Shown: piece after piece, positions 24,042 through 62,925 of the stretch
Numbering within the stretch: position 1 is the stretch's first letter
Layout: the number at the start of each line of letters is the position of its first letter
Assembly: GCA_018434325.1 (NCBI GenBank)
Contig: JAHDPO010000031.1
Location: 1 to 64,000 of the forward strand
Direction of reading: 5' to 3'
DNA from: Clostridia bacterium
GTDB lineage: Bacteria; Bacillota; Peptococcia; DRI-13; UBA5745
DNA length: 64,000 nt
The notes under the pieces: model-generated
What the model saw: the letters and a program-made list of their open reading frames with translations, nothing else
Database searches by the model: none
What the model was told of the DNA's origin: nothing
Translations under genes and position numbers: made by a program

Positions 24042-24122
24042 CTGTATCCTAAAGGAAAATGTTGGCTAAGCTAATTTCTGGAAAGAAATATTACCGATGG
24101 AATTGATCAGGGGGTGGCGGCA

Positions 24123-24818
24123 ATGACCAATACCGTTCTTGTTGTGGACGACGAGCGTGAAATTGCTGATTTAATTGAAGTGTATCTGTGCAATGAGAAT
24201 TATCAAGTTCTCAAGTTTTATTGCATGAAGGACGCTCAGCAGTCCGTTGATACGCAAAAGATCGATTTGGCTATTTTAGATGTAATGCTGCCGGATGGCA
24301 ACGGCTTTTCCTTTTGCCGGAAAATCAGAGAGAAGCATACTTTCCCAATTATTATGCTGACGGCTAAGGAAGAAGAGACGGATAAGATAACGGGCCTTAC
24401 CCTGGGCGCCGATGATTATATTACCAAACCATTTAAACCCCTTGAGCTGGTTGCCCGGGTAAAAGCCCAGTTGCGCAGATATAAAAAATACAATTCCTCT
24501 GCCTCGGTATTTGATCATGTATTGATTCACGGCGGATTGGAAATTAACGTGAGCACTCATCAATGTACTCTCGACGAAAAACCGATTCCCCTTACGCCGA
24601 CGGAGTTTACCATTTTAAGAATTCTCTGTGAGGAAAAGGGCAAGGTTGTAAGCTCGGAAGCTCTGTTTTATAAGATTTGGGGCAACGAATATTTTACGAA
24701 GAACAACAATACGATTACCACCCATATCCGGCATTTGCGGGAAAAATTGGGTGACAGTGGGTCACATCCCAAATACATTAAAACAGTATGGGGGGTAGGC
24801 TACAAAATTGAAGGATAA
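24123..24818 (+). CDS. VanR-like OmpR-family response regulator
   Basis: This 231-residue protein has a receiver domain (VVDDEREIADLIEVYL, Asp in LAILDVMLPDGNG, LTAKEEETDKI, Lys in ITKPFKPLELVARVKAQLRRYKK) and a winged-helix domain (LTPTEFTILRILCEEKG, NNNTITTHIRHLREKLGD, YIKTVWGVGYKIEG). It resembles the VanR of glycopeptide-resistance clusters closely, but no vanHAX genes occur here. ATG 24123 follows GGGGGTGG; a GTG 9 nt upstream is less likely. The stop overlaps the kinase gene start. Confidence 0.9.
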   Translation: MTNTVLVVDDEREIADLIEVYLCNENYQVLKFYCMKDAQQSVDTQKIDLAILDVMLPDGNGFSFCRKIREKHTFPIIMLTAKEEETDKITGLTLGADDYITKPFKPLELVARVKAQLRRYKKYNSSASVFDHVLIHGGLEINVSTHQCTLDEKPIPLTPTEFTILRILCEEKGKVVSSEALFYKIWGNEYFTKNNNTITTHIRHLREKLGDSGSHPKYIKTVWGVGYKIEG

Positions 24819-25932
24819 GAAACTATGGCGAAAGCCTTATTATAAGCTAATACAAAAAATCTTTAGGCAAGTGCTTTTGCTTGCTTTTTTCTCCTGCGTA
24901 GTCATTCTCCTGATCCGCTCTCTGGGGCGGGGTTATATCGGCAATGTCATAACAAAAGGGATTGCCAGGTTTTATCAAGTGGGCTGGGATGCTGCAAAAT
25001 ATATATATTATGAGACTGTTCGCCAAAATATTGACTATATTATTCTGGGCGCAATGATCGTCTTTTTCCTGCTGCTGATTCGGCTGCTGTTGTCTTGGTT
25101 CACGAAATACTTTGATGAGATTATCAGCGGCGTCAATGCCCTGGCCAGTGGACAGAAAAGACAAATTGTCATGTCCTCGGAATTGGGCTTTGTGTCGGAC
25201 CAGCTTAACAAGGTGAATGACGAGCTGATTCGCAGCGCTGAAGCTGAACGTGAGGCGGAAAAACGCAAAAATGATTTAGTAGTTTATCTTGCCCATGACA
25301 TAAAGACTCCCCTTACCTCAGTTATCGGCTATTTAAGCCTCCTGGAGGAAAGCCCTCAGCTGCCGGCAGATCAGAGGCAGAAATATATTGAAATCGCATT
25401 GACCAAGGCCCAGCGCCTGGAATGCCTTGTAAGTGAATTCTTTGAAATAACCCGGTATAATCTCCATGATGTACCGCTGCAGAAAAGGAGCATTAATCTA
25501 AGCTATATGATGGAGCAGATTGTTGATGAAGCTTATCCCCAGCTTGCTAAAAACGGTAAAACCGCATCCATCAATATTCCGAAAGAATTAACGGTATATG
25601 CCGATTCCGACAAGCTGGCCAGAGTTTTTAACAATATCTTTAAAAATGCCATTGCTTATAGCGAGGCGGGAAGCGTAATTGAGATTACCGCGGAATCGGA
25701 TCAGCAGAGAACGGTTATCCATTTTAAAAATACAGGTGCAATTCCCCAGAGCGAGCTGGACGCCATCTTTGAAAAATTCTATCGTCTGGACGATGCCCGG
25801 CAAACAGCCACCGGCAATGCGGGGCTTGGCCTTGCTATTGCAAAGGATATTGTGGTCTTGCACGGCGGTACGATTACGGCCGAGAGCCATACAAACTATA
25901 CGGTATTTACCGTTATGCTGCCCGAGCTTTAA
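24808..25932 (+). CDS. VanS-like sensor histidine kinase
   Basis: This 374-residue protein has two membrane segments (about 18-38 and 73-93), a linker, the HisKA motif VVYLAHDIKTPLTSVIGYLSL, KLARVFNNIFKNAIAYS, and a glycine-rich GNAGLGLAIAKDIV ATP lid. FFEITRYNL and EKFYRLDDAR are shared with VanSA. The start appears to be TTG 24808 inside the end of vanR. The extracytoplasmic loop is only about 35 residues, as in VanSA, so it may sense a membrane or cell-wall signal. Confidence 0.88.
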   Translation: MKDKKLWRKPYYKLIQKIFRQVLLLAFFSCVVILLIRSLGRGYIGNVITKGIARFYQVGWDAAKYIYYETVRQNIDYIILGAMIVFFLLLIRLLLSWFTKYFDEIISGVNALASGQKRQIVMSSELGFVSDQLNKVNDELIRSAEAEREAEKRKNDLVVYLAHDIKTPLTSVIGYLSLLEESPQLPADQRQKYIEIALTKAQRLECLVSEFFEITRYNLHDVPLQKRSINLSYMMEQIVDEAYPQLAKNGKTASINIPKELTVYADSDKLARVFNNIFKNAIAYSEAGSVIEITAESDQQRTVIHFKNTGAIPQSELDAIFEKFYRLDDARQTATGNAGLGLAIAKDIVVLHGGTITAESHTNYTVFTVMLPEL

Positions 25933-26056: not shown

Positions 26057-26833
26057 ATGATGCGCTATACTGAGGAGAATTTCACACTGCCCTTTGCACC
26101 CAACCCTGGAAAAAGTTTAAACATCATGACCAATTATGGGGTATTTTCACGTTACCCCGTTAAAACTCATGTGATTATGGAGACAGATTCTTTAGGGTCG
26201 GTGCTTGACCATTACCTTACACCCTATTTGCAGCCGGATGATTATGTGTTTATCAGCGAAAAAATAGTGGCAATCACCCAAGGCCGGGCTTTCCCTGTGG
26301 AGGAAATAAAGCCGGGCCGGTGGGCCAGGCTCCTGTCGTCATTTGTGCAGAAATCCTCCTATGGAATCGGATTGGGCATGCCCTGCACCATGGAACTGGC
26401 CATAAGGGAAATTGGCCTGCTAAAAATTCTCTTGGCGGCAGTATGCGCCGCCGTTACAAAACTCTTCGGCATACACGGGGTATTTTATCAAATTTTAGGA
26501 GAGCAAGCCCGAGCCATTGACGGCCCTTGCGATTATACCATACCGCCCTATAACCGTTATGCCAAGCTGGCCCCCAGCCGCCCCAATGAAGTGGCTAAGG
26601 AATTGGCTGCACATATTGGCGTAAAAGTTGTGATCATTGACGCCAATGATTTAGGCGTGGAGGTTCTTGGCCGCTCTCACTTTGATGAGATCGATATTGA
26701 TTTCTGCAAAGAGGTTTTTCGGGATAATCCTCTGGCTCAAGGCGACGAACAGACGCCTCTTTGTATCCTGCGCAGAGTACGGCAAGAGGATGTGAGTCCT
26801 GCTATCCTGAGTCCTAATCCCGAGTCCCGCTAA
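26057..26833 (+). CDS. CofE-like protein (F420-0:gamma-glutamyl ligase family)
   Basis: This 258-residue protein contains TDSLGSVLDHYLTPYLQPDDYVFISEKIVAITQGR, then GPCDYTIPPYNRYAKLAPSRPNEVAKEL and VVIIDANDLGVEVLG, which match the CofE/FbiB ligase fold. Canonical enzymes add glutamate to coenzyme F420. This organism type is not known for F420, and bacterial homologues near VanRS-like pairs may act on another acceptor. It appears to be the only gene controlled by the repeats and hairpin before it. The function should be taken as family-level only. Confidence 0.7.
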   Translation: MMRYTEENFTLPFAPNPGKSLNIMTNYGVFSRYPVKTHVIMETDSLGSVLDHYLTPYLQPDDYVFISEKIVAITQGRAFPVEEIKPGRWARLLSSFVQKSSYGIGLGMPCTMELAIREIGLLKILLAAVCAAVTKLFGIHGVFYQILGEQARAIDGPCDYTIPPYNRYAKLAPSRPNEVAKELAAHIGVKVVIIDANDLGVEVLGRSHFDEIDIDFCKEVFRDNPLAQGDEQTPLCILRRVRQEDVSPAILSPNPESR

Positions 26834-26845
26834 TCCCGAGCCCTG

Positions 26846-28552
26846 CTAGTCCTGAATCCTGCTCATGCGATTGACGGCGGAAATCAGGGCCCGCAGAGAA
26901 GCCTTCCGGATATCCCGGGAGGTGCCGGCGCCAAAACGGGTGCGGCCCTGCTTATCTCTCAGCTGAATGTAAGCCACAGCCCGGGAATCGGAACCGCTGC
27001 TTAAAGCGTGCTGGTCGTAGGAAAGGAAGTCGTAGTCGGCGGCGCCCAGGGTTTTCAGGGCATCGTAAAGAGCATCGATAGGTCCGTTGCCCTTGCCCTC
27101 TGCTTCCCTGGATTCTCCCTGATAAGTGATAACGCCGCTGAAATGGACTTCGTTGTCTTCCTCATCGGCCTCGTTAAGATAAGCGGTGCGGAAGGAGTTC
27201 AGCTCATAGGGGCCTGCCGGCCGGACAAACTCCTCGGAGAAAATAGCCAGCAGGGTCTCAGCGTTGATTTCAATATTATCTCTGTCAGCTCTGTCTCCGA
27301 TCACTTGGCCCAGCTCCGGCAGCATGGCTTTAGGGAGCTTGTAGCCGAAAAGATTTTCCAGAATAAAGCCGGCGCCGGCTTTAGCCGATTGGCTGTTGAT
27401 ACGGAGGATGGGATCGTACTGCCGGCCCACATCGGCGGGGTCCAGAGGCAAATAAGGCACTTGCCAGGCGGTGAGCCGCCGTTTTTTGCGCTGGCTGAGG
27501 CCGTTGAGAATGGCGTCTTGCTGGGCGCCGGCTAAAGCGGTGTAAACCAGCTCGCCGGCGTAAGGCTGGCGGGGGCCTACCGGCAGATGGGTAGTCTTCT
27601 GGCAGACCTGCCGGATTTTGTTGATATCACTGAAATCCAGGCCGGGATCGATGCCCTGGCTATAGAGATTAAGGGCCAAAGTGATCAGGTCCGCATTGCC
27701 GGCCCGGGAGCCGCTGCCAAATAAGGAGCCCTCTATGCGCTGCGCCCCTGCCAGCATAGCCAATTCGGCGGCGGCCACAGCTGAGCCCCGGTCATTGGCA
27801 GGGCGGACACTAAGGATAAAGCGGCCGCGGCAGCCGCTGCTTTGGCAGAACCACTCGATTTGATCCGCATAATGATTAGGCGTACATCTTTCCACAGTGG
27901 CCGGCAGACCGAGAATAACCGGATTTTCCGGCTCCGCCTCAAGGGCGTCCAGCACCTCTGCCGCCATACGCAAGGCAAAGGCCGGCTCCGTTTCCGTGAA
28001 GCCTTCCAAAGAATAGGCATAGGTCAGCTTCAGGCCTTTTTGCCGGGCTGCCCGGCCCAGCCTGCCAATTTGGCCGGCGCAATCCTTAGCTGCCGCCGCG
28101 ACAGCCTCCGGCCCGCCGGGATGAATCAGTTCCCGCTGTAAAGGGCTGGTGCAGCTGAAAAAATGAAATATTACTTCCGCGGCCCCTTCGACAGCTTGGA
28201 AGGTTTTTTCGATCAAGCTTTCCGTACAGGGGCTCGTTACCTGTAAAGCCACGCCGTCGGGGATCAGCCGCTGATCGATTAAGTGGCGCAGAAAGGCATG
28301 ATCGGCCTGATCCTGCCCCGGGCAGCCGATCTCAATTTCCTTAAAGCCGATTGACGTCAGAAGCTGAAAGAGCTCCAGCTTTTCCTCCAAGCTCATGGCA
28401 ATGGGTAAGGCTTGGCTGCCGTCGCTAAGGTCTACGCTGCACCAAAGGGGCCTCTGGCTGATGGTCCGGGAAGGCCAGGTGCGGCCGGGCAGGTCCGCCG
28501 GCACGCAAGGCTTGTATTTGGGGGAAGGATCTTTCATACCGCTGGCTGACAT
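26846..28552 (-). CDS. 2-isopropylmalate synthase (LeuA type 2) homologue lacking key catalytic residues
   Basis: This 568-residue protein aligns along its whole length with actinobacterial-type LeuA: TIM-barrel, then the C-terminal regulatory domain (SSGSDSRAVAYIQL). Key positions differ. DLRDGNQ is DLSDGSQ (41-47), losing the catalytic Arg; the metal-binding HPHNDRG is RPANDRG (250-256), losing both His; GNGERTGN is GSGSRAGN. Canonical enzymes condense 2-oxoisovalerate and acetyl-CoA using a divalent metal. This protein should not bind the metal in the normal way, so it may be a pseudoenzyme, a regulator or a changed activity. AGGAGGTAACGATT precedes the ATG. A structured leader lies upstream. 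Confidence 0.8.
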   Translation of the reverse strand: MSASGMKDPSPKYKPCVPADLPGRTWPSRTISQRPLWCSVDLSDGSQALPIAMSLEEKLELFQLLTSIGFKEIEIGCPGQDQADHAFLRHLIDQRLIPDGVALQVTSPCTESLIEKTFQAVEGAAEVIFHFFSCTSPLQRELIHPGGPEAVAAAAKDCAGQIGRLGRAARQKGLKLTYAYSLEGFTETEPAFALRMAAEVLDALEAEPENPVILGLPATVERCTPNHYADQIEWFCQSSGCRGRFILSVRPANDRGSAVAAAELAMLAGAQRIEGSLFGSGSRAGNADLITLALNLYSQGIDPGLDFSDINKIRQVCQKTTHLPVGPRQPYAGELVYTALAGAQQDAILNGLSQRKKRRLTAWQVPYLPLDPADVGRQYDPILRINSQSAKAGAGFILENLFGYKLPKAMLPELGQVIGDRADRDNIEINAETLLAIFSEEFVRPAGPYELNSFRTAYLNEADEEDNEVHFSGVITYQGESREAEGKGNGPIDALYDALKTLGAADYDFLSYDQHALSSGSDSRAVAYIQLRDKQGRTRFGAGTSRDIRKASLRALISAVNRMSRIQD

Positions 28553-28750
28553 AATCGTTACCTCCTTGACAAAATAGGCTTAATCAGAAAATGGAATTTT
28601 TAGGCCCCGGATGCTCAAATTTGTGAGTTGTGTGGTGTTTGATCCGACTTCAGACCCGTTTTGGGGATTGGCAATTGCACATAACTCGATTTTTTGAGCA
28701 TCGGACTCTCTAGTGGGAGCTCGGCAGTGACTTGGCTTTTAAAACAATTT

Positions 28751-28885
28751 AAAAAATAAAAGCCGTCAGCTCTATCGTTTAGAGGCGACGGTCAGGGGAA
28801 ACGCTCCGAGGCCGGTTCCCTTGTCTTGCCTATTGCCTCGCATTAACCGGCAGCTTTCCGAAGTCCAAGGTGAAGATGTTGCTCT
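28751..28885 (-). ncRNA. Structured leader RNA with terminator upstream of the LeuA-like gene
   Basis: On the minus strand about 135 nt fold into several stems: GCCGGTT/AACCGGC around a GCGAGGCAATAGGC loop, a competing GGGAA/TTCCC pairing, and a final CCGTC-GC-CTCTA/TAGAG-CT-GACGG stem followed by a T-rich run (28751-28761). Competing stems before a terminator are typical of a riboswitch or attenuator. I did not recognise a known class, and no T-box sequence is present. A free small RNA is also possible, since the gene begins 200 nt later. Confidence 0.5.
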
Positions 28886-28975
28886 ATCCGCGTAATATGG
28901 TAAATGATGAGTCAAATGTAGCATGATTCAGTAAATAAAACAAGAAAAAAATTTGAAAACCAAATAAATTTGATA

Positions 28976-62652: not shown

Positions 62653-62925
62653 AAAAAAACCGGGGGACAGAATACCCCCGGTGAACGCAAAAGCCAGCCT
62701 GAAATCCCTTCACCACCAAAGGATCTTGAGAAACAACCGGCAGATATCCTGACTCAAAGCTTCAAACCTAATCCACAAGCCTTCCCGGAAAAGATTCCAG
62801 TGGCGCAATTTGTGTTTCGTAGCTTTTACAGTAAAGTGTGCTGTTGCGGATTCTAACCGCATTCCCTATTAATGCCTATAAAGGCAACCGGCTGTCTTTA
62901 TATATTTAGTTGTCCTGCACCAATT
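62653..62925 (-). promoter_or_regulatory. Cobalamin riboswitch with terminator, upstream of btuFCD
   Basis: On the minus strand GGGAATGCGGTTAGAATCC-like core bases, the B12 box CGCCACTG (62815-62808), GGGAAGGC, and GTCAGGATATCTGCCGG appear in the order expected for the cobalamin aptamer. A stem CCGGGGG/CCCCCGG (62660-62682) followed by TTTTTTT terminates transcription. High cobalamin should switch the importer off. The outer limits of the aptamer are approximate. Confidence 0.92.

Follow-up and report, generated by a model that had tools for sequence, protein, structure and literature searches.

A full-length type-2 LeuA that has lost its active site and may be retained for its regulatory domain

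Within a window of 64,000 nucleotides from a Clostridia bacterium (contig JAHDPO010000031.1, the whole stretch analysed here), one gene encodes a type-2 LeuA, hereafter LeuA2, which by its residues is almost certainly dead as a synthase and has probably been maintained by selection nevertheless. We give an even chance to the explanation that it is a catalytically dead pseudoenzyme retained for a regulatory half that would bind leucine and act on a putative partner.

Family membership and loss of the active site

LeuA2 passes the cut-off of the curated model NF002991 with 623.7 bits against 455 over residues 10-562, its full length, and contains the HMGL-like, IPMS_D2 and LeuA_dimer domains in that order (Table 1). 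The open reading frame begins with ATG, is preceded by a Shine-Dalgarno sequence and has no internal stop, in agreement with a preliminary description of the sequence, which had called the protein full length with an intact frame. Among proteins of solved structure the best-matching relative is M. tuberculosis LeuA (1sr9, 3fig; type 2, NF002991 / PRK03739), which is likewise full length with the three domains and shares about 40% identity with the window protein, and it was also the top match when the PDB was searched with an AlphaFold model of LeuA2. In this model both the barrel and the regulatory domain are present, with low confidence for residues 1-9, 331-338 and 378-389. The full-length TM-score is low (0.57, rmsd near 19 Å) because the placement of the two halves relative to each other differs or is uncertain; the barrel alone reaches a TM of about 0.9 of the target with an rmsd near 2.5 Å.

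Table 1. Features of the LeuA2 locus in the window.
Feature	Position	Strand	Remarks
Degenerate type-2 LeuA gene	26846..28552	-	568 aa, frame intact
HMGL-like TIM barrel with lost active site	27605..28447	-	residues 36-316
IPMS_D2 linker subdomain	27356..27553	-	residues 334-399
LeuA_dimer regulatory domain	26864..27271	-	residues 428-563; dN/dS 0.079
R80S codon	28424-28426	-	
H285R codon	27803-27805	-	
H287A codon	27797-27799	-	
H379Q codon	27521-27523	-	in the IPMS_D2 linker
Shine-Dalgarno AAGGAGG of LeuA2	28561..28567	-	from the sequence; graded strong
Dispersed repeat separating the T-box relic from the gene	28590..28715	.	12 additional matches in the genome
T-box stem-I-half relic, antiterminator half missing	28792..28913	-	alignment to the T-box of G005

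Residues were compared in an alignment to 1sr9 and about 60 canonical relatives, and M. tuberculosis numbering is used for the substitutions and for the positions of the catalytic and leucine sites. The residues R80, H285, H287, H379, E317, N170 and N83, which are invariant in each canonical relative covering the position, are replaced in the window protein by Ser, Arg, Ala, Gln, Ser, Ser and Ser, respectively, and these replacements (R80S, H285R, H287A, H379Q, E317S, N170S and N83S) set it apart from M. tuberculosis LeuA. Other changes at near-invariant positions include P89A, S171C, P217L, S219G and N250G, and the GxGERxG motif, canonically GNGERTGN, reads GSGSRAGN. Of the arginine and the metal ligands expected in an active enzyme (R80 with D81, H285 and H287) D81 alone remains, and neither H379, the likely catalytic base, nor the GxGERxG motif is preserved. 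The substituted motifs reported in the preliminary description, DLSDGSQ and RPANDRG, were confirmed letter for letter. Its claim of loss at all main active-site positions was too strong, since D81, Q84, H167, E218, T254, N321 and Y410 are retained, but the loss is large, and the replacement of H379, which had been overlooked, adds weight to the loss of catalysis. Altogether, 14 of 77 near-invariant columns of the catalytic region are altered in the window protein (11 of the 14 are altered in its sister too), against 0, 1 and 0 of the same columns in the three nearest live relatives, which is therefore far beyond chance.

In the homologous BjMAMS2A the metal is held by two His and one Asp and is essential, and activity was undetectable in the mutants R89A/K/Q and H388A/D/E/Q (PMC11532901); R89 and H388 are equivalent to R80 and H379 in the mapping that we made. 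Since four such changes (R80, H285, H287 and H379) occur together, isopropylmalate synthase activity appears very unlikely for LeuA2. A family score alone is thus an unsafe basis for annotating leuA, given that this degenerate protein clears a curated cut-off.

Live and dead copies among relatives, and a second LeuA

The sister species (G008, a Clostridia metagenome-assembled genome, contig JAHDMJ010000014.1) carries a LeuA2 that is 84% identical to that of the window's genome (G000) and has the key losses in common with it. The replacements of R80, N83, N170, H285, H287 and H379 (S80, S83, S170, R285, A287 and Q379) use identical codons in both, and sequencing or assembly error was rejected, since residues and codons agree between two genomes that were assembled separately. 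The loss of the active site is accordingly older than the split of the two species. Canonical catalytic and metal-binding residues are found in G005, of the same genus (63% identity), and in G001 (67%) and G002 (52%), both of the same family. The substitutions are thus shared by the nearest species but not fixed among relatives further away. The live gene of G005 and the window gene have the same efflux genes nearby, but relative to these the G005 gene points the opposite way, so that the locus is related but rearranged; canonical residues at the same locus, which the preliminary description had named as evidence against its proposal, therefore do occur in this more distant congener, while the nearest species shares the losses.

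The active site has truly been lost, but recently and within a narrow group. When genomes were scanned with a DNA pattern for the Ser-substituted motif, which misses the serine codons TCA and TCG, it matched only G000 and G008 among 46 genomes of the class and only the window's own genome among 399 genomes of the phylum, these totals taking in all genomes whether or not they carry a type-2 LeuA. An old and widespread family of dead LeuA was also considered and is not supported, the pattern being confined to two species in these sets.

A second, independent degenerate type-2 LeuA, 42% identical to LeuA2 and carrying R80S, Q84R, T254N, H287L and H379I, was observed on a gammaproteobacterial metagenome contig (L052, 3597-5297, (+)), adjoining a gene that resembles aminodeoxychorismate/anthranilate synthase component I. 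Its R80S looks convergent with that in the window protein. A search of the 2.0-Mb genome of L052 (completeness unstated) turned up no further LeuA-like gene, and because this setting, with no LeuA1, differs from that of the window, the protein may simply be decaying. In G001 (L076, 4445-9912) the live type-2 leuA follows genes resembling homoserine kinase and two homoserine dehydrogenases; it has no T-box at the Rfam threshold, and a clear leuB was not found in this 85% complete genome.

Both species with a dead copy also have LeuA1, 93% identical between them, with leuC, leuD and leuB adjoining its gene. The normal leuA that the preliminary description had suggested looking for elsewhere in the genome is therefore present, in a leuA1-leuC-leuD-leuB operon (G000:C56) confirmed with curated models. 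This LeuA1 scores 753 bits to the LeuA1 equivalog NF002086. It has the superfamily and the original reaction in common with LeuA2, but differs in its canonical DRDG-type and HCHDD-type motifs (TLRDGEQ and HCHDDLG), its operon context and its low similarity to the window protein (85.6 bits by phmmer). LeuA1, for which acquisition by transfer was considered, is present in most of the class; that of the two species reaches 57% identity to LeuA1 from other families within it, compared with 51% to that of the family members G003 and G004, which have LeuA1 and lack the type-2 copy. In the live type-2 carriers G005, G001 and G002 no LeuA1 was found, which is weaker evidence for G005 and G001, with genomes only 80-85% complete, than for G002 (96%). 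Among these few genomes, the lost site and the joint presence of LeuA1 and LeuA2 go together.

That both species keep LeuA1 and LeuA2 would also suit a regulatory or structural subunit of the leucine pathway that does not itself sense leucine, for example in mixed oligomers with LeuA1, and HisZ with HisGS offers a precedent (PMC9734150). Mixed oligomers are doubtful, however, since the two proteins are only distantly similar, and the leucine-site residues kept in LeuA2 also speak against such a subunit, which we regard as very improbable.

Selection after the loss of the site, and loss of T-box control

Because the losses are common to both species with the same codons, the divergence between G000 and G008 dates after them. 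Over 568 codons the two LeuA2 genes differ by no stop and no indel, and their dN/dS is 0.16 (NG86) or 0.19 (YN00), compared with 0.03-0.13 (NG86) for ten neighbours. By part, dN/dS is 0.185 for the barrel, 0.126 for the linker and lowest for the regulatory domain (Table 1), with bootstrap 5-95% ranges of 0.12-0.19 for the whole gene, 0.14-0.23 for the catalytic part and 0.04-0.16 for the regulatory part. Neutral simulations with the same number of changes gave a mean of 6.7 stops, a probability of 0.0016 for no stop and an identity of at most 73%, against the 84% observed.

LeuA1 of the same pair of species served as a control. The catalytic domains are 79.5% identical for LeuA2 and 94.8% for LeuA1 (Fisher p 4e-8), and the barrel of LeuA2 changes at roughly four times the rate of the LeuA1 barrel, whereas the regulatory domains are 92.9% identical for LeuA2 and 94.9% for the LeuA1 core, that is, the regulatory domain without its variable insert (p 0.61). 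On the basis of this comparison, the LeuA2 barrel is relaxed but not free, and the regulatory domain is held under much the same constraint as in a working enzyme. An apparent excess of conservation of the LeuA2 over the LeuA1 regulatory domain (p 0.044) was discarded, as it vanished once the variable insert of LeuA1 had been removed. Conservation of the regulatory domain is not unique to the dead pair either, since the live relatives G005 and G001 show it in a milder form (75% regulatory against 69% catalytic identity); the additional bias in the dead pair is modestly significant (p 0.034). At the leucine-site positions of type-2 LeuA, taken from PMC2704214 (531, 533, 535, 536, 551, 554, 558, 565 and 567), both dead proteins have the same residues as their nearest live relatives, G001 and G005, and the window protein keeps all seven near-invariant columns of the regulatory region unaltered.

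The live gene of G005 is immediately preceded by a T-box (RF00230, 99.3 bits, Rfam) with the specifier triplet CUC, called by eye, which is a leucine codon. Alignment of the window leader to this T-box gave a score of 103 over 28792-28959, the best of 1000 dinucleotide shuffles reaching 42; Rfam on the window leader alone returned chance-level matches only, and the relic emerged solely when the leader was compared with that of the live congener. The dispersed repeat that follows it, possibly a small mobile element, has no match in the sister genome and is absent at this locus there. In the sister species the T-box upstream of LeuA2 has been lost altogether, without even a relic. With the antiterminator half missing and the repeat lying between relic and gene in the window species, and the T-box gone in G008, LeuA2 is out of T-box control in both species, unlike a type-2 LeuA with a working leucine T-box and no separate LeuA1 in its genome. 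Loss of the old leader, together with the upstream insertion in the window species, could mean falling expression.

The main rival explanation is slow decay of a redundant enzyme, in which LeuA1 covers the pathway while the site and the T-box of LeuA2 erode and the frame is unbroken so far. It is consistent with LeuA1 making the enzyme redundant, with a T-box reduced to a relic in one species and lost entirely in the other, with the repeat upstream of the window gene, with the different changes that each species shows along the active-site loop, and with the fast evolution of the barrel. Yet all of the divergence within the pair is later than the loss, and it has been accompanied by a low dN/dS even in the barrel and by no indel or stop, an outcome that neutral simulation rarely gave for stops and never gave for identity. 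We therefore consider decay unlikely.

A candidate leucine sensor

A different function for the barrel has also to be weighed, in which it has been re-tooled for another, possibly metal-free reaction and the replacement residues form part of a new site. The residues S80, S83, S170, R285, A287 and Q379 are identical in both species, D81, E218, T254 and N321 stay, and the barrel is still under purifying selection, all of which speaks for it. On the other hand, the two species disagree at the pocket and loop positions 171-177, 223, 315 and 317, no part of LeuA2 is less conserved than the barrel, and no new pathway genes were recognised adjoining it in the window. Because variation between the species falls on the pocket positions and not on the regulatory domain, new chemistry is the less likely reading, and we rate it as clearly unlikely.

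The preliminary description had proposed selection for another function, for example leucine sensing or a metal-free activity, and this is borne out in part. Selection for a non-synthase role agrees with the low dN/dS after the loss, the lack of indels and the normal leuA operon elsewhere in the genome. Preservation of the regulatory domain and of the leucine-site residues favours leucine sensing, whereas metal-free activity has become less likely because the active-site loop goes on changing in its own way in either species.

We propose that a normal type-2 LeuA under leucine T-box control lost R80, the substrate-site arginine, the metal ligands H285 and H287, and H379 in the ancestor shared by two species which also carry LeuA1. 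With these residues gone, the protein would presumably be unable to run the metal-dependent Claisen condensation. The T-box was dismantled, with the protein remaining under purifying selection and its allosteric domain intact. The C-terminal domain would most likely bind leucine and pass its state to a putative partner, the TIM barrel acting as a scaffold. For the retention of LeuA2 as a predicted leucine sensor the balance of the evidence is level, and the presence of the dead form in two species only counts against it, as do the possible fall in expression and the bias towards the regulatory domain that live relatives already show. More tentatively, LeuA2 may represent the conversion of an allosteric enzyme into a stand-alone amino-acid receptor, caught early, with live relatives and the relic of the RNA switch still visible.

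A works-like comparison can be made with HisZ, the regulatory subunit of ATP phosphoribosyltransferase, which controls the opening step of an amino-acid pathway but does not catalyse it (PMC9734150), but HisZ has a known catalytic partner, HisGS, whereas that of LeuA2 is putative, and nothing suggests that the two proteins are related. A LeuA pseudoenzyme was not found described in the literature searched, which left most subscription journals outside its scope. Pseudoenzymes usually come to light long after they arose, whereas here ancestor-like live forms, a redundant LeuA1, a leucine T-box in decay and two species that diverged after the loss are available together. With such a set it can be tested by what route a feedback-regulated enzyme turns into a sensor, or whether this one is simply being lost.

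Elsewhere in the window, the convergent neighbour of LeuA2 (26057-26833, (+)) encodes a protein of 258 aa with a weak match to F420-0:gamma-glutamyl ligase (PF01996, 31 bits) and no NCBIfam match. A two-component pair is located at 24114-25932 (+), and its regulator exceeds the NCBIfam VanR-ABDEGLN cut-off (365 against 350 bits), van genes having been sought among the immediate neighbours only. A cobalamin riboswitch (62722-62907, (-), 102 bits) and a pemK RNA (1824-1904, (+), 67 bits) were also detected.
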